A DNA stretch of 45,251 bases from a virus. The stretch spans positions 1 to 45,251 of the IMG/VR virus record IMGVR_UViG_3300036770_000646. One strand, 5' to 3'. The translations under genes and the position numbers were made by a program. Each line of letters starts with the position of its first letter. Position 1 is the first letter of the stretch. The notes beneath the pieces are model-generated. The model made no database searches and was not told the DNA's origin. It saw nothing but the letters and a program-made list of their open reading frames with translations. Positions 7,591 through 19,430 of this stretch are shown here, one piece after another.

Positions 7591-8150
7591 TAAAACTCGT
7601 CGTCGTCGTCAACGGGAGTCGTAACGGAAACATTGGGTTCGCCAACCTTGAAACCTTTGGTTTGACCAAACAAGGCAGCAGCTTCCGTATCGTCGTAGTC
7701 GCCTCGATCCACAGCAGCACCACCAGCACAGCTGATGACTTGAACAGCCTTGAGCACCAGGCGGGTGCCGACACTGTCAGGGGTGGTGTAGGGCTTCTGG
7801 ACGAAAGCAAGCTTTACCATGCTGCCGCTGTAGAGCGGGATCTCCTCTTTGATCGGAGTACCCTCTGAATCAACAATGGGGACAACCACATCAGGTTTCC
7901 AGCTAAAGCGGACCTGATACTGACCGTCACTCACACTTTCCCAGGGCTCAACCTTGACGGTTGCACGGTTGGGGTTTTTATGTTTGGACTTTGCCCACTT
8001 GAGAAGCTCTTCACGATCTTGCTCAAGACGATCAACGATCTTTTCAGGGACAATAGCCTGCAGACCACGCTTACCAAACTTGCTTTCCTTGAAGAAGTTT
8101 TGATACCCCTCAAGAACAACAGGTTCAGTGACAATTGTGGGATTGGACAT
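7590..8150 (-). CDS. Single-stranded DNA-binding protein (T7 gp2.5-like)
   Basis: The protein coats ssDNA at the fork and recruits polymerase and helicase. It is 186 aa and predicted to be OB-fold-like, with a strongly acidic C-terminal tail (VDDDDEF) typical of gp2.5 and used for protein contacts. The start overlaps the RNA polymerase stop as TAATG. Identification rests on the tail, the length and the position between RNA polymerase and endonuclease I. Sequence likeness to T7 itself is weak. Confidence 0.85.
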   Translation of the reverse strand: MSNPTIVTEPVVLEGYQNFFKESKFGKRGLQAIVPEKIVDRLEQDREELLKWAKSKHKNPNRATVKVEPWESVSDGQYQVRFSWKPDVVVPIVDSEGTPIKEEIPLYSGSMVKLAFVQKPYTTPDSVGTRLVLKAVQVISCAGGAAVDRGDYDDTEAAALFGQTKGFKVGEPNVSVTTPVDDDDEF

Positions 8151-10489
8151 TAACAGAAGAAATAGGTGGAATTAATCACGGCCTCTGGCTCCAGATCTCC
8201 AATAATTGGAGGCTCTGTTACCGCACCGATCTGAGCTGCAAAGTCACGCAGATAATCGTGCTCTGCAAAGATATGCATGTAGGTTTCACGAACCACTGTC
8301 GACAGTTGCGACATGTCCGTGGCACGACACAACACGGAGTCGTGGATCACACTGAATGGTGCATCAAACCTGATGAAAGACAAATGTAAGATGGATGCAT
8401 CCAGTGAATGAATGAGGTTGGGAGCTGTTGCTGCTTTGTGCCTGTTGATGTCCACCTCATTGGTGTCACCATCAGCAACAAGCAGGTCACAGGATCCAAG
8501 CAGCTGGAGTTGGATGCGAACCTTGTTGGGTTTCATCAGCTTTTGATTGACGACAAACCCACTGGGTGTTGTCCAGGTCAGCTTGGTTTTGCCTGCCTTG
8601 ATGGCAGCAGAGACCTCATCTTCAATCCAACGCATCACCTTCATGGGACCAGGAACCACACGTTCCATCGCCTCACGAACAGCTCTGACTGTCTGCGTGA
8701 GATCGTCTTTCTCGATCTCCACATCTTTATCCTTCAACGCTTCACGGATGTACCCACGATTGGAGTACGGCTTGGCGTTGTAAGGGACAGTCATCACCAC
8801 CCGCTTGACGGTTTTGCGATCCATATAGGGCTGGATCGATTCAGGGCAGTGGGGCTTGGCTTCCTCAGCAACAACCTTGTAGGCGTCCTGAGGGCAATCA
8901 CTAGGGAGGACGTTGACCAGACGTGCAGTGCTGGCATCCCTCGCCAACCCCGCCAAGATCTGAAGACCTGAGCAGGTGGCATCGGTGGCGATGCAGAGCC
9001 CTGTGAAGGAGCGGGTGCAGGCCAGCAAGCAGGCATGCATCTCCTCACAGGCAGCAAGGAATTGCCAAGGCTCTTCCGCTGCTTCCCAGTCACCAATGTT
9101 TGCTAGTGGATCGGTTGCGACCCTAGAGATCAGGGCATGGTTGTTGTCCGCCCAATCCAGGCGATCCTGGAGGGTGCTCTTGTCGAGCCCATAGGTGGTG
9201 GCGACTTGAAACTTCAACCAGTCCTCTGACTCGGGGGTCAAGAAGGCCTCCTCTGCAAAGCGCAGCAGGCTCTTGCCAAAGTCCGTGTCCTGGGGCGTGA
9301 GGAAAGCGGGAATGGGGTAAGCCCTTCCCCGATAGTCCGTGCTCCATGGCAAAAAGAAGCGGTCCTTGGTGGCAAACAAGCCCGCCACTTCCATGGTCAT
9401 GCGGGTGCGGCAGCTCTTGCGAAAGACCTGCGCTTGTTGGTTCATGGCCTCAGCTGTACGACGCCTGTAGTCCTTGCGACTGTCGTAGTTCTCAGCGATG
9501 TCTGAGGGTTTCGGAGGCTTGGGCACCTCGTAGATGGGGATGAACTTCCCCACCTGGATGCCTCGCTCCATCAGCTGGAGGGCCACGCCATAGGTGAAGG
9601 GGTTGACCTTGTAGGCCACCTTCTGCAGGTGGTTGAGGAATGCATAGATTCCCTCCCCCTGTACACATCCCTGATCACCCCTGCGGACCATTTGGTGGCC
9701 GCGCATCACCTCGTTGAGCAGGTAGCCCCCTGGCTTGGCAGGCGACCAATCGTTGGGCTCGATCAGCATGGGCCAGGCCAATGGGGCAAAGCCTTCCGCA
9801 TCGCCCATGATCTGGTCCTTGACGGCGTAGAACTCCGGGGTGGGAACGATGCAGTTCTGGCGCTTGCCATGGTGCATCTCCACCACCTTGGTGAACCAGC
9901 CCGACACCTGACACAGGCAGTCCAGCAACCAGCCGCCCAGCTTGGTGCGAACGGTGCGAGACCAGTGCTGCCACTCTTTTTCATAGCGGTTCATCAACGT
10001 CTTGGTGGTGGCCAAGCGTTGACGGGTGCCTGAGGATTGATGCCAGTAGTTCTCTTTGATCCGCTGCAAAAGGTTGGGATCCGTCTTTTCATACCAGCGC
10101 ATCTGACACTCTTGTTCGATAGCAGCACCGATACAAGAGATGACCTCCGTAACAAGATTGGAGTTAGCTTTGTGGCTAAAGATCTTATCGAAGGCAATCT
10201 TTAAGGCGATGGCTGCCATGGAATAGGTGTCCAATTCCAACAGGTAAGCATTGATCTCAGCGAACAAAAGACCGTTGTCGCCCTTCTGAATGCGAGCAAA
10301 TGCTGTCTCATCGATATAACTAACCAGCTTGGGAAGCATCGCCTGGATGCAAGTCACCCCGTAAATCGAGGCGCTGGCATAACTCTTTTGTTCTAGTTCA
10401 AATGTATTGGACCAGAGCCGTTGGGTGCCCTGGCGGATGGCGCGACGCTCCAATTCGACCTGTTGCTCGATCTGAGCGGGGGTTGCCAT
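8150..10489 (-). CDS. Single-subunit T7-type DNA-directed RNA polymerase
   Basis: This enzyme transcribes middle and late phage genes. The 779-aa chain is a little shorter than T7 gp1 (883 aa). Catalytic landmarks are present: D503 in ATDATCSGLQ (T7 D537), the O-helix DRKTVKRVVMTVPYNAK with R558, K562 and Y570 (T7 R627, K631, Y639), and D717 in VIHDSV (T7 D812). The aromatic C-terminus YFFC corresponds to the T7 FAFA foot. The specificity-loop region lies around residues 620-680. It begins a new unit after a terminator and intergenic gap and heads the replication operon. Bases about 8,800-9,980 look richer in G+C than the genes downstream. Confidence 0.97.
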   Translation of the reverse strand: MATPAQIEQQVELERRAIRQGTQRLWSNTFELEQKSYASASIYGVTCIQAMLPKLVSYIDETAFARIQKGDNGLLFAEINAYLLELDTYSMAAIALKIAFDKIFSHKANSNLVTEVISCIGAAIEQECQMRWYEKTDPNLLQRIKENYWHQSSGTRQRLATTKTLMNRYEKEWQHWSRTVRTKLGGWLLDCLCQVSGWFTKVVEMHHGKRQNCIVPTPEFYAVKDQIMGDAEGFAPLAWPMLIEPNDWSPAKPGGYLLNEVMRGHQMVRRGDQGCVQGEGIYAFLNHLQKVAYKVNPFTYGVALQLMERGIQVGKFIPIYEVPKPPKPSDIAENYDSRKDYRRRTAEAMNQQAQVFRKSCRTRMTMEVAGLFATKDRFFLPWSTDYRGRAYPIPAFLTPQDTDFGKSLLRFAEEAFLTPESEDWLKFQVATTYGLDKSTLQDRLDWADNNHALISRVATDPLANIGDWEAAEEPWQFLAACEEMHACLLACTRSFTGLCIATDATCSGLQILAGLARDASTARLVNVLPSDCPQDAYKVVAEEAKPHCPESIQPYMDRKTVKRVVMTVPYNAKPYSNRGYIREALKDKDVEIEKDDLTQTVRAVREAMERVVPGPMKVMRWIEDEVSAAIKAGKTKLTWTTPSGFVVNQKLMKPNKVRIQLQLLGSCDLLVADGDTNEVDINRHKAATAPNLIHSLDASILHLSFIRFDAPFSVIHDSVLCRATDMSQLSTVVRETYMHIFAEHDYLRDFAAQIGAVTEPPIIGDLEPEAVINSTYFFC

Positions 10490-10735: not shown

Positions 10736-11596
10736 TTAGATGGCCAAAATGGCCTCCTCCCGCGCCTGGTCCGACACTTTGGCATACCGCAGCGTCGTCT
10801 CCACACGCTTGTGACCCATCAGGTCCATGATCGTGCGAACCGGCACCCCCGCGTCGTTGCACCACGTCGCAAAGCTGTGACGCAATGTGTGGAAGCAGTA
10901 GGTCTCATCCTTGCGGATGTAGTTGCGGGCCTTGTTGTACGCCCGCAGCAGCTGGTCGCCGCCCGTCCACTCATCGCCAAACAGCTTGACGCTGGGGGTG
11001 GCGTATTGCAGCCGATCCGAGACCAATCCCCGGATGCGCTCGTGGATCGGAATGACCCGATAGTTCCGCGCCTTGGTGGTGAAACCAGGGCGCCCGCCCA
11101 CGTGGATCTGCCAGGTGGCAAGGTCGATGTCCATCGCCTGCACCGTCAGCAGCTCCGCCCGCCGCATGCCCGTGTAGGCCGCAGCCACAATGATGTGGGC
11201 GAGATCTTGTCGATCAAAGGGGTCCAACGCTGCTTGATGCAGCTGCTCCACCTCGTCTTTGGTGTACCAGCGGAAGCGGTGTTCGTTCTCTTTGCGCCGC
11301 CGAAACTTCGGGGCACCGGAGATCAAACCATCAAAGGCCAGGTGATTGAGCACTGTCGATACAGCACTGACAATCCTGTTGATCGTGGCATCGGATTTGC
11401 CCTCATCTTCCAGTTCAATGCACACCTGTGTGACCACCGGTTGACTGATCTTGGAGATGGGGAAACTACGGCCACGCAAGCGTGTAAAATGCCCTGAGTT
11501 GATCAAGGCTGTCTTGCGTCCATTGCCATGCCTCCACGTATCACGCGTGGCGAACGTGTAGTCGAGTGCTTGGCCCCAAGTGGTGAGTTTATCCAT
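10736..11596 (-). CDS. int: Tyrosine site-specific recombinase / phage integrase
   Basis: This enzyme catalyses integration at a host tRNA-Leu site if the adjacent fragment is attP. The 286-aa protein has a SAM-like core-binding N-terminal half (to about residue 100) and a full catalytic domain: R145 in TGMRRAE, probably K175, H236-x-x-R239 in HTLRHSFATW, H262 in LMGHKRVETTLRY and nucleophile Y271. Nothing looks broken. The start overlaps the MarR-like gene by 8 bases. It is G+C rich relative to the replication genes. Cyanopodovirus integrases are known, although stable lysogens of this group have rarely been shown. Confidence 0.95.
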   Translation of the reverse strand: MDKLTTWGQALDYTFATRDTWRHGNGRKTALINSGHFTRLRGRSFPISKISQPVVTQVCIELEDEGKSDATINRIVSAVSTVLNHLAFDGLISGAPKFRRRKENEHRFRWYTKDEVEQLHQAALDPFDRQDLAHIIVAAAYTGMRRAELLTVQAMDIDLATWQIHVGGRPGFTTKARNYRVIPIHERIRGLVSDRLQYATPSVKLFGDEWTGGDQLLRAYNKARNYIRKDETYCFHTLRHSFATWCNDAGVPVRTIMDLMGHKRVETTLRYAKVSDQAREEAILAI

Positions 11597-11942
11597 AGAG
11601 GATGTCTTTCATCTGTTGGGCTAACAGTTCACCCTCACGAGTCAGGGTGAGAATCTTACGTCGGGTGTTGGTTGGATCGTCCTCCTTTTTGATGAGGTTG
11701 AAGCCAGCTTTGCCAAGGCGGTGTGTCTTGGAAAGCCAGTCAGTTGTCCTGGAACCTGATGCTGTGGAAAGACCAAGGTCTTCCTCAAGTGCTTGCTTGT
11801 GGCAGCCGTTGTGGCTAGCAACGTATGCAAAAGCAGCAACAACTTGACCGGGAACTTCTCGATCCATGACCCTGAGTAAGTTCATGGCTTTAAGGAACCG
11901 ACGCATGTCGTCGTCGGTGCACCTTCTCTTGAGTGGATCCAT
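11589..11942 (-). CDS. MarR-like winged-helix transcriptional regulator
   Basis: A 117-aa DNA-binding protein from the ATG at 11942. Residues about 32-115 follow a MarR layout: an AFAYVASHNG helix, the recognition region KQALEEDLGLSTASGSRTT, then a wing KEDDPTNTRRKILTLTREG and a C-terminal helix. An upstream in-frame ATG at 12008 would add 22 residues unlike the family. It is translationally coupled to integrase (8-base overlap), suggesting that it controls the early or lysogeny module. Confidence 0.75.
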   Translation of the reverse strand: MDPLKRRCTDDDMRRFLKAMNLLRVMDREVPGQVVAAFAYVASHNGCHKQALEEDLGLSTASGSRTTDWLSKTHRLGKAGFNLIKKEDDPTNTRRKILTLTREGELLAQQMKDILYG

Positions 11943-12093
11943 GGTGACGCCAGTGAGGGCGATTGAGTTCCATCTCAAGTATACCAAAGCGGACATGCAG
12001 CGAGACACTGGTAAGCCAAGCGTCGTAACGGCAAATCCGCTGTAAACCGAAATAAACCGGGCCGAACGAAAATAGCTGCACGGAAGTTGTAGT

Positions 12094-13851: not shown

Positions 13852-14553
13852 TTAGGCAGCAGTTACATACTTTGAGCCAGTCCCATGAGCATGTACAAAC
13901 ACATCAGCCCTGGCACCATCGCAAAGCTTACAAGTAATACACTGCGCCGCACTATTTGCCACAGTAGCTGGACATTGTTTGGCATAGTTTGGTGTTGCAA
14001 CTTTGGAAACAACAGTGAATGTTTTCCAGCCAAGATCACTGGCACGTAGATAGTCATTGAATCCGTCACAAGATGCTTGGAAAATACCTACAAAAGGAGC
14101 AGCAAACTTACTGCGCCATTGATGTGTGTAACCTGTGTGGCCTTGGGCAAACTTATTGAGACGAACAACAACATCAGGATTGATGATGCTAGGGTCACCA
14201 TATGCACCCCAACGAATACGTCTGTCGCGAAGGATTAAAGACAACTCGTAATAACTCCAACGCTTACGATAAGCGCCACGTTTGTAAGCCTTCCAGATAC
14301 TGTTAGGGCCCTGGCCTACGTTGACATAGCAAGATCTAGAACCGTCAGCTTGTTTGCGATGTGGACAGTTGCCGCAGATCGTGACATCCTTGCCAGTCTG
14401 TACAGCTTCCACAGGATTAATATCATCACGCAAGATCCATACTTGCGCCATGTTGCCAGTCTTACGATTGCTACTCTCAAGTGTAAGAATAGCCACGTAA
14501 GGTTGACCGTCAATGGGAGATTCCCCACGGTCAATGATAAAACCTTTGGTCAT
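13852..14553 (-). CDS. Conserved Cys-rich phage protein of unknown function
   Basis: A 233-aa soluble protein, the largest in the promoter-proximal early block. Seen: NRKTGNMAQVWILRDDINP, then a paired-cysteine motif CGNCPHRK ... SCYVNVGQGP, a RIRWGAYGDPSII segment, and a C-terminal metal-site-like set CPATVANSAAQCITCKLCDG. The pattern resembles a widespread uncharacterised phage family (I recall it as DUF7227-like, not verified). The Cys spacing suggests a metal or Fe-S centre, but no enzyme class is assigned. A good AAGGAG site precedes the ATG, as does one copy of the repeated TGTACACTCACA box. A strong terminator follows, so it may be expressed very early. Confidence 0.75.
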   Translation of the reverse strand: MTKGFIIDRGESPIDGQPYVAILTLESSNRKTGNMAQVWILRDDINPVEAVQTGKDVTICGNCPHRKQADGSRSCYVNVGQGPNSIWKAYKRGAYRKRWSYYELSLILRDRRIRWGAYGDPSIINPDVVVRLNKFAQGHTGYTHQWRSKFAAPFVGIFQASCDGFNDYLRASDLGWKTFTVVSKVATPNYAKQCPATVANSAAQCITCKLCDGARADVFVHAHGTGSKYVTAA

Positions 14554-14575
14554 GGTGGACTCCTTGAGTAATGTT

Positions 14576-14587
14576 TGTGAGTGGACA
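14576..14587 (-). repeat. TGTACACTCACA box, copy a (one mismatch)
   Basis: Minus-strand TGTCCACTCACA, 23 bases upstream of the ATG of the 233-aa gene. It is one of four similarly oriented boxes in 14.5-15.3 kb, each placed upstream of an early gene or at the promoter. Confidence 0.55.
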
Positions 14588-14799: not shown

Positions 14800-14809
14800 G
14801 GTGTTAGTT

Positions 14810-14821
14810 TGTGAGTGTACA
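14810..14821 (-). repeat. TGTACACTCACA box, copy b
   Basis: An exact copy on the minus strand, immediately upstream of the 69-aa gene. The flank ATTACC-TGTACACTCACAAAC also resembles copy d. Confidence 0.6.
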
Positions 14822-14997: not shown

Positions 14998-15087
14998 GGT
15001 GCCTCCTTAAGTGTGGAGAGGGTACAAGAATCCCTCAGAAAGCCATCAGGATTGATGGCTAGTTGAGAGAATCAGTCACAACATGTC

Positions 15088-15099
15088 TGTGAGTGTACA
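15088..15099 (-). repeat. TGTACACTCACA box, copy c
   Basis: An exact minus-strand copy preceded by GCCATAATG, which gives a CATAAT -10-like hexamer. It lies 91 bases upstream of the 56-aa gene. Confidence 0.6.
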
Positions 15100-15214
15100 C
15101 ATTATGGCTGGCCGGTTCAGTGTGCCCTAACCCAACGCCCAAGAATCCCGCTCGATTGGTGCGCTGGCGGCAGTGACCTACTACGCCTGTTCAGCCGGTT
15201 ATTTAGTTGTCGAT

Positions 15215-15226
15215 TGTGAGTGTACA
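15215..15226 (-). repeat. TGTACACTCACA box, copy d
   Basis: An exact minus-strand copy that contains the TACACT -10 hexamer of the promoter at 15219-15247. Confidence 0.6.
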
Positions 15227-15247
15227 GGTTATGGGCCAACCTGTCAA
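15219..15247 (-). promoter_or_regulatory. Sigma70-like early promoter
   Basis: The minus strand has a perfect TTGACA (15247-15242), a 17-base spacer and TACACT (15224-15219), pointing into the early genes. It is the best host-type promoter I see in the window and the likely entry point for host RNA polymerase. Confidence 0.65.
15224..15244. promoter_or_regulatory. Operator-like inverted repeat overlapping the early promoter
   Basis: ACAGGTT (15224-15230) and AACCTGT (15238-15244) form a perfect 7-base inverted repeat with a 7-base spacer, filling the space between the -35 and -10 boxes. A dimeric repressor bound here would block the promoter. The RHH gene at 15770 and the MarR-like gene are candidate binders. 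Half-sites recur at 15383 and 13848. Confidence 0.55.
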
Positions 15248-15580
15248 GCCGTTTGTGGGTAGCTCCTATCACCCGGAGGGATCGGAAGCTAGCGGGCGGA
15301 GGGGATCACGTAAGGGTCGCTTCCTAGAGGAAGGGCTTGGCTTGCCTTCGCGGCAGCTTCCCTTGGCCTCATGTGCACCAATGTACAGGTTAACCGTGGC
15401 AGATCCACATCAGCTGTGCCGGTCTGCCGATTGACACATAGGGGCAGACAGATCGCACCATATATAAATAAAGATGGCTTATTGAGAACTGGTCGCAATA
15501 AGGTGAGAATCGAGCGCCAGACAGGGCCGAACCTAGGTTGATCCGTCAGATACTCAATCTAACGCGGCCTTTTCCCCAGG

Positions 15581-15595
15581 ATTGGGCACCCCACA
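15581..15595 (+). promoter_or_regulatory. Possible phage RNA polymerase promoter (Syn5-like motif)
   Basis: ATTGGGCACCCCACA shares its first 11 bases with the promoter reported for the related cyanophage Syn5 RNA polymerase (ATTGGGCACCCGTAA, from memory). It points rightward toward the lone plus-strand RHH gene, against the direction of nearly all other genes. Confidence 0.45.
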
Positions 15596-15769
15596 CGGGG
15601 GTAAGTGGGTCCGTGGGACGACGTATACAGGCTTGAGAAATTTTTGTCGGAAAGTGAGCCAGATTTGCTGCACTCTGAGACCAACTCACATCACTGTGAT
15701 ACGTTATTGAGGTGGGGCCGCGTGCTTGCAACACCGACCCCGTGACCAACTCAACCAAGGATTGAGCTG

Positions 15770-15952
15770 ATGACCCAAGTCTTACGAGCCCAGGCCAACC
15801 TGCAAGCTCTTTCAACATTTGCGACACGCAAACCAGTCCGTGTGACCGCCACATTGTCGTGGTCGACCTACCAACAGCTGGTTATTAGAAGCACCGAAGA
15901 GGGCCGAAGCGTCAGCAACCTGATGGCCTACATATTAGAGAGCCATCTATAG
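15770..15952 (+). CDS. Ribbon-helix-helix (CopG/Arc-like) DNA-binding protein
   Basis: The only convincing plus-strand gene, 60 aa. The C-terminal 38 residues fit an RHH fold: a beta strand RVTATLSWST with conserved spacing, helix A YQQLVIRSTEEG, the turn RSVSN and helix B LMAYILESHL. Similar short RHH proteins occur in picocyanobacteria and their phages. The start has an AAGGA site about 10 bases upstream. It is divergent from the early operon promoter and convergent with the 94-aa gene at 15980. A short AGGCC/GGCCT hairpin follows the stop. Position suggests a repressor or switch protein for the control region. This is inference. Confidence 0.75.
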   Translation: MTQVLRAQANLQALSTFATRKPVRVTATLSWSTYQQLVIRSTEEGRSVSNLMAYILESHL

Positions 15953-15979
15953 GCCCCAGGAAGGCCTCTAAAATTACAC

Positions 15980-16264
15980 TTAGAAGCCAGTGTACCAAGG
16001 AGCAGTTAAACGCATCTCAGGGAGGCTTGTAGAGCCCTCTGAGAGCGTTTCTGTGTAAATAGGAGTTACATAGTCAGGTTCAACCTTCTTGACTTCAGCA
16101 TGAAACTGTTCAATAGCGGTGTCTAAATCGGTTTTAATCCGATTATCTATCACCCACTGCTCAATCCAGACAAGCAGACCAAGCAGCAGGTGATCAAACC
16201 AAGGGATGCCTTGTTTCCACGTCACATACAGTGTGTGGAACTCATTCAGTTTTAGTTCCCTCAT
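15980..16264 (-). CDS. Hypothetical protein with a hydrophobic segment, 94 aa
   Basis: From the ATG at 16264, the sequence has WFDHLLLGLLVWIEQWVI (about 23-40), a possible membrane or amphipathic helix, then a coiled helical stretch and a polar C-terminus. It overlaps the upstream gene by 23 bases and is last in the thyX-led series. Function unknown. Confidence 0.55.
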   Translation of the reverse strand: MRELKLNEFHTLYVTWKQGIPWFDHLLLGLLVWIEQWVIDNRIKTDLDTAIEQFHAEVKKVEPDYVTPIYTETLSEGSTSLPEMRLTAPWYTGF

Positions 16265-16484: not shown

Positions 16485-16818
16485 CGAGTTGCTCCAGTGC
16501 GCGGCGGATGGGACTATCGGGTGCAATGTCCATAACGTTCTCCCATTCAGCTAGCTCAGCCAGCGCCTGCTCCTTCAAGCTCGGCTGCTTGGGGCGGCGG
16601 GCGGCGCGAATCTTATCGGCAAGCGATTTGCTGTCTAAAAAGCTCACCTCAGTCAGGCACGCCTCCAGCTCCTGATCTGCACCCCATTGGGCAGCACACT
16701 TGCAGAGGTAAACCTCATCACCAGCAAACCCTCCAGGGATCTCACCACCGTAATACTCAATCATCCATGTTTTGATCAAATCCAACGGTGGATTAATCGG
16801 GTGTTGTTCTTCAGTCAT
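16477..16818 (-). CDS. Conserved Synechococcus/cyanophage-type protein (MTEE-HPI-PP family)
   Basis: A 113-aa protein from the ATG at 16818, with the family-like blocks MTEEQHPINPPLDLI, AAQWGADQELEACL and RAARRPKQPSLKEQALAEL. These blocks recur in Synechococcus proteins of unknown role, so the gene is probably shared with hosts. It overlaps thyX by 8 bases and the next gene by 8, forming one coupled unit. Confidence 0.7.
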   Translation of the reverse strand: MTEEQHPINPPLDLIKTWMIEYYGGEIPGGFAGDEVYLCKCAAQWGADQELEACLTEVSFLDSKSLADKIRAARRPKQPSLKEQALAELAEWENVMDIAPDSPIRRALEQLDD

Positions 16819-17455
16819 CACTCCACATAGCCTCACAAACATTAGGAAGGTGTTGATACAGCAGGTCTTGGACTTGACCAGCTATCTGTGCATGCTCTCT
16901 TTGTGTCCCATGGGCTGTCCTGAGGTCGCAGTAATGCAACCAAGACCTGATAGTGCCATTCATGTACAGCCTGGACGGAGATGCCATAGGAAGGACATCC
17001 CTGGCACACTCTTTAGCAACACCAGTGGACACCATCTCTCGATAGAGATCCTCAGCCTCTGCAAAGTGCTGATGAATGCGGCGGATGAACTGTTGTTTCT
17101 TTTCTGTGTCTAGATCATCGATGCTGTTCTGACGGTTGGTTGGGTCTTGCCTACGAAGGGACGGAACAATGGGAGTACCAATGGTGGTGACATCGGCATA
17201 GCGTTGGCTGAACTCCTGAAAGGAGAACGACCTGTGCCTAAGAATCTGAGCTGCTATAGCTCTGGTGGTATTGATCTCCACACACAGGTTCACCATTTCA
17301 AATGGAGACCAATGGTTGTGGGTAATGAGGTACTTAATCAAACGAGCACTGGTCTCAGTGTTTGATTGATTGGCTGGATTAGACACCCTTGCCATATAGG
17401 CAATTAGTTCTTCAGCTTCAGGAGTGATGTGTACGAGGTTAACTTGGTGGATCAT
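16811..17455 (-). CDS. thyX: Flavin-dependent thymidylate synthase
   Basis: It makes dTMP from dUMP with FAD, NAD(P)H and methylenetetrahydrofolate. The ThyX signature RHRxxSxxxxSxRY is exact at residues 73-86 (RHRSFSFQEFSQRY), and 214 aa is a normal length. Conserved C-terminal PMASPSRLYMNGTIRSWLHY is also present. It complements the phage RNR and MazG-like enzymes in deoxynucleotide supply but lies far from them, beyond TerL. A palindromic AT-rich promoter-like element precedes it. No clear ribosome binding site precedes the ATG at 17455. Confidence 0.97.
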   Translation of the reverse strand: MIHQVNLVHITPEAEELIAYMARVSNPANQSNTETSARLIKYLITHNHWSPFEMVNLCVEINTTRAIAAQILRHRSFSFQEFSQRYADVTTIGTPIVPSLRRQDPTNRQNSIDDLDTEKKQQFIRRIHQHFAEAEDLYREMVSTGVAKECARDVLPMASPSRLYMNGTIRSWLHYCDLRTAHGTQREHAQIAGQVQDLLYQHLPNVCEAMWSDD

Positions 17456-17684: not shown

Positions 17685-19430
17685 TTATTTGAGTCTTACC
17701 CAGGTTGGAGAACCAGCTCTTCCAGCTTTACCCCTAGCCTGTTGTCTTTGTTGGAGGTCGAACCCCAGCACCATGTGATTGGCTGCTGCTTGAGGGTCAT
17801 CAGCCCAGCTATCAAGCAGGTCTTGCCAGTCTTCCTGCTTGCGTTGTTTGACGACCTCCATCGCTGAGATGCCCATGGCGTCGGTGAAGTACTTCACGCC
17901 CTGAGCTAGGGAGTCCAATCTGTCGTCGTGTTTGACAGCACCCTTTTCCCGGCACATGCGGGACATCTGGTAGAAGAGCATGTAAAGGATGCGGTCTTCT
18001 GGAGGGGCGTCTTTGTTGGAGTTGTAGTCCCACTCCACCACCTTCCGGTCCACGATCAGGCGGTGCTGGTTCATCACAGGCTCCAGGGCATCGATGATGC
18101 GGTCTTCTTTGCGGACATTGGCCCGCACCTCTTCGACATCGATGGCTTGTTTGGTCTGCTGCAGGTGCTTCTTGAACAGCTCAGCCACGATGCCATCACC
18201 AAAGTTGGTCTCGATCAGCAGCTTGGTGACGTTGTAGGCCTTACAGCCCCTCAGAATGTCTAGAAGGGTGTTGTCGCTGTAGCCATCTTTGTAAGCACGG
18301 ACCTCGTGGACATAGAGGAAACCGTTGCGTTGGCTTATGTAGGTGGCAGCTGTTTCGTCTGTGCCTCGACCTGACGGGTCAACGCTGCATATCGTTTCAT
18401 CGTACGCACTCCACTCTCCCTGAAGCTGCATCGGGGAGTAGAAATAATCACCCGGTAGGCCAACTGTAGGCAGATCCTTGAGCACATTACGAGGGTCACT
18501 GCACCACACAACAGAATCCGGCGCTTGAGTCGGGTTAACAGCGGTAACGATGAGGTCTTGGAACTTAAGTGGGAACTTTTCTGCATCGCTCAGCGTGGTA
18601 TCAAGTTGGAACTGCAACATGAAGTTGCTGCGACCCATGGATGCTTCCCGTTCCAGCAGATCGTTGGAGCTAAACCGGTCTGGATCGGTAGGAGACCACT
18701 CATCAATTCCCATCTCCACGTCTTCAATCAGCTGTGGAGCCAGCAGGTTTTCGTATTGGGAGAGTTTGTCTTTGAGTGGGTAGCGTGCTGGCCAGACAAA
18801 GGGTCGGTAGTTGCGCTCAGCAAGCTTTCGATAAATGGTAAAGGTTGTCTGGGGAGTCCCCAGGTACATGATGCGGGAGTCTTTCTTAGGCGTAAGGATT
18901 GATTCAGCCTCTGTACAGAGTTGAAGGAGCTTCTCACGCATCATTTCGGTCATGGAGTTACCAGGCACCTCGATGTCATCCAAGATCATTAGGTCTGCGC
19001 GGGAACCAGTCAGCTGACCTGTGATACCCACGGACTTTACAGAGGGTGCTTGGTGAGGGCTGCAGTTCACATCAAAGGAGATGCGAGACCAACGGGCGTC
19101 ATCACTCTTAGGCTTTAGGTGAGCTAGCCAAGGAGTCTCAATGATTAGCTTCTGCAGGAAGATGGACATGTTGTCTGCCCGTTCCTTAGAAGCCGAGATA
19201 ATCATGATCTTCTTTTCTGGGTTGTTAAACAGGGTCCACAACACAAAGGCACCTGTGATCCACGACTTACCAACACCCCGAAATGCTTGGATCTGTAGTC
19301 GCTTTGGTCCGTGCTGCAGGTAGTCTGCGATGGCGTATTGAGCACGAGTAGGAGAGGGGAGATCTAACTGACCCCAGAGAGCCTGCAGAAAGAGCTTAAA
19401 ATCGTCTCTAAGGGCTGTTAAAGTATCCAT
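17685..19430 (-). CDS. Terminase large subunit (T7 gp19-like)
   Basis: The ATP-driven DNA packaging motor and nuclease, 581 aa (T7 gp19 is 586). N-terminal ATPase: Walker A FRGVGKSW at 50-57, Walker B LMILDDIE at 147-154, and an LGTPQT coupling motif at 190-195. C-terminal RNase H-like nuclease: D351 in SVDPSGRGTDET, the LIETNFGDG segment, and D in HDDRLDSLAQG near 520. It begins after a terminator, so it needs its own promoter or read-through. It follows TerS by four genes and would lie near the genome right end in T7 order. Confidence 0.97.
   Translation of the reverse strand: MDTLTALRDDFKLFLQALWGQLDLPSPTRAQYAIADYLQHGPKRLQIQAFRGVGKSWITGAFVLWTLFNNPEKKIMIISASKERADNMSIFLQKLIIETPWLAHLKPKSDDARWSRISFDVNCSPHQAPSVKSVGITGQLTGSRADLMILDDIEVPGNSMTEMMREKLLQLCTEAESILTPKKDSRIMYLGTPQTTFTIYRKLAERNYRPFVWPARYPLKDKLSQYENLLAPQLIEDVEMGIDEWSPTDPDRFSSNDLLEREASMGRSNFMLQFQLDTTLSDAEKFPLKFQDLIVTAVNPTQAPDSVVWCSDPRNVLKDLPTVGLPGDYFYSPMQLQGEWSAYDETICSVDPSGRGTDETAATYISQRNGFLYVHEVRAYKDGYSDNTLLDILRGCKAYNVTKLLIETNFGDGIVAELFKKHLQQTKQAIDVEEVRANVRKEDRIIDALEPVMNQHRLIVDRKVVEWDYNSNKDAPPEDRILYMLFYQMSRMCREKGAVKHDDRLDSLAQGVKYFTDAMGISAMEVVKQRKQEDWQDLLDSWADDPQAAANHMVLGFDLQQRQQARGKAGRAGSPTWVRLK

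Follow-up and report, generated by a model that had tools for sequence, protein, structure and literature searches.

Phage protein family PHROG 2554 is related to DUF7227 and GP88 and may comprise radical-SAM-like Fe-S proteins

The gene at 13852-14553 of the window (the whole stretch of DNA analysed, a virus record of 45,251 bases taken in full) encodes a protein of an uncharacterised phage family, PHROG 2554, whose interest lies in sequence comparisons that would join three such families (phrog_2554, DUF7227 and GP88) and tie them, more distantly, to radical SAM proteins. We judge the chances to be about even that the protein is a small, non-canonical radical-SAM-like Fe-S enzyme, acting on a host or defence target soon after infection begins.

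A real open reading frame (ORF) of 233 amino acids with an ATG start was present on the minus strand (14553 to 13852), as proposed in a preliminary description that had given no strand, and the ribosome binding site, upstream box and terminator named there were all located:

13852-14553, minus strand: phrog_2554/DUF7227-related protein, predicted radical-SAM-like Fe-S protein, 233 amino acids (ORF call, profile matches and model)
14560-14565, minus strand: ribosome binding site AAGGAG, 6 nt 5' of the ATG
14575-14587, minus strand: upstream box TGTCCACTCACAA, with one mismatch relative to TGTACACTCACAA
13832-13811, minus strand: intrinsic terminator, a hairpin plus T run, TGAGGGG-8-CCCCTCA TTTTTT (folding z-score -3.8)

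The arrangement AAGGAG-N6-ATG occurred a single time in the window, at the gene's own site (0.38 expected by chance), and the terminator hairpin, with its U run in the transcript, started approximately 20 nt past the stop codon. Four boxes close to TGTACACTCACAA were found on the minus strand (14575-14587, 14809-14821, 15087-15099 and 15214-15226), standing 5' of small early ORFs. By itself the pattern was modestly more frequent than expected by chance (4 relative to 1.4 in the whole window, with 5 of 100 shuffles reaching 4); all four copies were on the same strand and inside 652 bases, and a TCCACT-type version of the box was kept at the equivalent place, 5' of the homologous gene, in near relatives. 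The box could serve as a promoter element or in some other role, and a sigma-70 scan produced promoter-like sites in numbers no higher than chance. Upstream of the early genes, the region 15020-15980 contained no convincing ORF, and is possibly a genome end or a regulatory region.

All genes of the window considered here run leftward, in the order terminase, thyX, small early genes, integrase, T7-like RNA polymerase, SSB and primase, and this arrangement is that of a T7-like cyanopodovirus. The main neighbours were as follows:

17685-19430, minus strand: large terminase subunit (context)
16811-17455, minus strand: ThyX-type thymidylate synthase (named by sequence inspection), the upstream neighbour in most close relatives
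11589-12008, minus strand: homologue of P-SSP7 pMarR (PSSP7_011), 53% identity
10736-11596, minus strand: integrase, 43% identical to the P-SSP7 integrase
8150-10489, minus strand: T7-like RNA polymerase, 56% identical to the P-SSP7 enzyme

The order terL - thyX - phrog_2554 gene - pMarR - integrase - RNA polymerase was kept in many contigs of T7-like relatives. Induction of host RNase E has been reported for P-SSP7 pMarR (PMC9692554), a homologue of which was also present in many related contigs.

The protein matched the profile of its own family, PHROG 2554 (annotated 'unknown function'), over its full length (E 1.5e-63, residues 1-230), as did 51 of 51 aligned members. By tblastn, the family was found in 148 phage records at roughly 33-42% identity, the hosts of these phages including Mycobacterium, Gordonia, Klebsiella, Roseobacter, Microcystis and Caulobacter, among others; further carriers were more than 500 viral contigs, a few plasmids and eight contigs of bacterial assemblies. 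Literature searches on DUF7227, PHROG 2554 and PF17338 returned no paper and no described activity, in keeping with the earlier suggestion of a widespread phage family lacking an assigned function, and PADLOC gave no match for the phrog_2554 family. One homologue (L104, 8565-9248) carried a single in-frame TAG in an otherwise conserved frame, which could reflect a sequencing error, a pseudogene or recoding.

The Pfam family DUF7227 (PF23872) was matched by the protein over residues 23-230 (E 9.4e-6) at 25.8 bits, which is below the gathering cut-off of 27 bits, and DUF7227 was therefore treated as a sister family of which the protein is not a member; one relative of the protein scored 27.7 bits. 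In the reverse test, the phrog_2554 family profile matched DUF7227 genes at 5e-8 to 6e-5, so that shared ancestry of the protein and DUF7227 is supported by the profiles in both search directions. DUF7227 proteins in turn matched GP88 above the cut-off (7.8e-6 and 1.4e-7), and did so again in whole-record searches. The GP88 profile of Pfam (PF17338) gave no match for the protein or its relatives, and an hhalign comparison of the phrog_2554 family with GP88 scored 33, relative to a maximum of 22 among 60 column-shuffled decoys. The relation of phrog_2554 to DUF7227 and GP88 is judged firm because of the reverse profile match, the hhalign score above the shuffles and the residues kept across 13 representatives (see below).

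Beyond GP88, two further single steps would tie phrog_2554, DUF7227 and GP88 distantly to radical SAM proteins. GP88 matched DUF5131 proteins at about 5e-5, and 11 of 11 GP88 matches in 78 mycobacterial genomes fell inside chromosomal DUF5131 genes; DUF5131 (PF07505) matched, at 1e-20, the NCBIfam model TIGR04471 (rSAM_mob_pairA, radical SAM mobile pair protein A). Direct hhalign of the phrog_2554 family against DUF5131 scored at the level of the decoys, and the radical SAM link is thus a chain of single steps. The preliminary description had listed radical-SAM, nuclease and reductase folds as candidates; the sequence evidence, running through DUF7227, GP88 and DUF5131, favours the first. Chromosomal DUF5131 proteins (L183 and L202) matched PDC-M30B and PDC-M41B, two candidate defence models of PADLOC, and a relative of the phage family may therefore act in bacterial defence.

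Cysteine clusters had been noted at both ends of the protein, and both (C60xxC63...C75 and C194...C205xxC208xxC211) were real and at least 98% conserved among 64 aligned relatives, although the first lies at residues 60-75 and not at the very end. The conserved motifs map as follows:

14326-14376, minus strand: N-terminal cysteine triad C60-G-x-C63-P-H-R ... C75-Y76 (residues 60-76), invariant in the 64-relative alignment
14194-14214, minus strand: motif R114-W-G116-A-Y-G119-D120 at the end of predicted strand 113-118, with the R and GD also in DUF7227 and GP88
13921-13974, minus strand: C-terminal four-cysteine site C194-P ... C205xxC208xxC211 (residues 194-211), with ferredoxin-like ligand spacing

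The invariant residues in 51 diverse members included C60, C63, C75-Y76, R114, G119-D120, Y142, H144, C194, C205, C211 and H223-G224, with C208 nearly invariant. When 13 representatives of phrog_2554, DUF7227 and GP88 were aligned automatically, residues K31, C75, Y76, R114, G119, D120, C194, C205, C208 and C211 were kept in all of them. In DUF7227 and GP88 the cysteine region aligned with the triad, and every family retained its final Cys-Tyr; the four-cysteine site, (nearly) invariant in phrog_2554, was also present in the DUF7227 and GP88 representatives. DUF7227 (for example, P-SSP7 PSSP7_001) is colinear with the protein over the whole domain, sharing the K, Cys-Tyr, R...GD, CP, CxxCxxC and HG, but the protein has an extra N-terminal hairpin and segment ahead of the triad, other cysteine spacing, and RWGAYGDP where DUF7227 has LWRHNxxGDLP. 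GP88 (for example, D29 gene 88) has in common the cysteine region ending in CY, the R...GD and the CP plus CxxCxxC, and differs in its CPxATxFCxxICYA-type triad and in lacking the terminal HG. DUF5131 and TIGR04471, linked through GP88, likewise have three cysteines ending in CY, but lack the C-terminal four-cysteine site and any direct profile match to the protein.

The CxxxCxxC motif of radical SAM enzymes was absent from the protein, which has C60xxC63 ... C75 instead, and for this reason the protein was not classed as a genuine radical SAM enzyme. The spacing of the triad varied by family, being CX2C plus a longer variable gap in phrog_2554, CX3CX6C in most DUF7227 proteins, CX6CX3C in GP88 and CX6CX2C in DUF5131. 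Non-canonical cysteine spacings do exist among radical SAM proteins (for example, ThiC and PhnJ). The triad of the present protein sits before its first long helix, the position at which radical SAM enzymes carry their cluster. The C-terminal site, with CP and CxxCxxC, provides the same ligands as a ferredoxin-type [4Fe-4S] cluster.

The AlphaFold model of the protein was confident (pLDDT 93.6, pTM 0.90). Its Foldseek matches in the PDB were weak (best E 0.04, none at 0.001 or better) and consisted mostly of TIM barrels, including the radical SAM proteins TYW1 and ThiH, and TM-scores of the model to radical SAM enzymes were 0.15-0.23. In a viral structure library, a DUF7227 model matched at 6e-7; behind it, with weak scores, came a radical SAM protein of a phage and GP88 models. 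A GP88 protein model (pLDDT 79) gave TIM barrel matches with probabilities up to 0.97, none at E < 0.001, and PDB sequence searches with the protein and the three family profiles returned nothing significant. A clear match to a characterised family had been named in the preliminary description as evidence against its reading; neither a PDB sequence match nor a confident fold match of that kind was found.

Based on the ferredoxin-type ligand set and the position of the triad before the first long helix, the protein is proposed to be a radical-SAM-like enzyme that carries a further, auxiliary metal site. The protein would form a partial TIM-type barrel, in which C60, C63 and C75-Tyr may hold a [4Fe-4S] cluster facing S-adenosylmethionine near R114-x-G-x-x-G-D, and in which C194-Pro with C205xxC208xxC211 would form a second site, for an auxiliary cluster or for zinc. 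The protein would be produced as infection begins, and would modify or remove a host or defence-related target. Here we infer Fe-S clusters, SAM use, enzymatic activity and an early role in takeover or counter-defence.

The main rival is zinc binding without SAM chemistry, a possible but less probable reading in which both cysteine sites bind zinc and stabilise a non-redox TIM-type protein. Such a protein would contribute to host takeover by binding, or would be a hydrolase such as a nuclease or deaminase, and would descend from the radical SAM side with the chemistry lost. The cysteine sites themselves would suit zinc just as well as Fe-S. The variable triad spacing, the lack of CxxxCxxC, and the matches of the GP88 model to TIM barrels that are not SAM enzymes (adenosine deaminase and zinc methionine synthase) are consistent with zinc, and the conserved H223-G224 next to CxxCxxC could supply the remaining zinc ligand, but GP88 lacks H223. 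Zinc alone also fits poorly with the retention, across four families, of three cysteines ending in Cys-Tyr before the first long helix, one of these families (DUF5131) matching a model that NCBI names radical SAM. That the gene is a dispensable early accessory serving metabolism instead of takeover, for example nucleotide or cofactor metabolism beside ThyX, appears improbable: ThyX is indeed the regular upstream neighbour in T7-like relatives, but elsewhere the family and its sister families are found beside ParB-like nucleases and methylases, or Lsr2.

Because the C-terminal CxxCxxC is followed by an invariant His, tRNA-guanine transglycosylase (TGT) or DpdA-like base exchange was considered, in which a TIM barrel with a CxxCxxC...H zinc site would introduce 7-deazaguanine into phage DNA or tRNA; the zinc site of TGT resembles this arrangement. 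Known phage DpdA families are divergent (PMC6884629). No TGT family was matched in Pfam or NCBIfam at E up to 1, TGT was not among the fold matches listed for the protein and GP88 models, and inspection of the window's larger ORFs revealed no queuosine-pathway gene. In addition, such an identity would leave the N-terminal triad unexplained, and GP88 lacks the His. With neither profile nor fold support, the TGT/DpdA identity was rejected as very improbable.

The promoter-proximal position noted in the preliminary description was supported, and phrog_2554, DUF7227 and GP88 occupied equivalent promoter-proximal slots. In T7-like cyanophages the slot was held by DUF7227, PSSP7_001 being the first gene of the P-SSP7 genome and the DUF7227 gene of P-SSP2 preceding gp0.7 and the RNA polymerase. 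Among cluster A mycobacteriophages, GP88 is gene 88 of D29, second from the right end, and in RhynO, which belongs to the same genus, phrog_2554 is gene 74, again second from the right end. None of 32 records carried two of the three families, which is the informative part of this count, the records having been picked for having one. Since many unrelated phages keep the group at the start of their early genes, the protein probably acts as an enzyme in the early phase of infection. In Ma-LMM01 the published early cluster comprises gp054-gp063 (PMC5780444), and the homologue, gp072, falls outside it; 'early' is thus not true of every family member.

More tentatively, and with less confidence than the proposal for the single protein, the three families could stand in for one another as branches of a single class of radical SAM enzymes that is specific to phages and has two Fe-S sites, supplied as a first early product of unrelated phages and disabling or modifying one conserved bacterial target or defence signal. 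If the proposed relations are true, three large uncharacterised phage families, each with well over a hundred phage records and between them represented in the model phages D29 and P-SSP7, would merge into a single superfamily with predicted chemistry and a common position heading early transcription, and an 'unknown early protein' would become a matter of testable Fe-S/SAM biochemistry in phages with laboratory hosts. In Streptomyces phages (L207, L208 and L210), GP88 was present twice, near both genome ends, by Lsr2-like and ParB-like nuclease genes.
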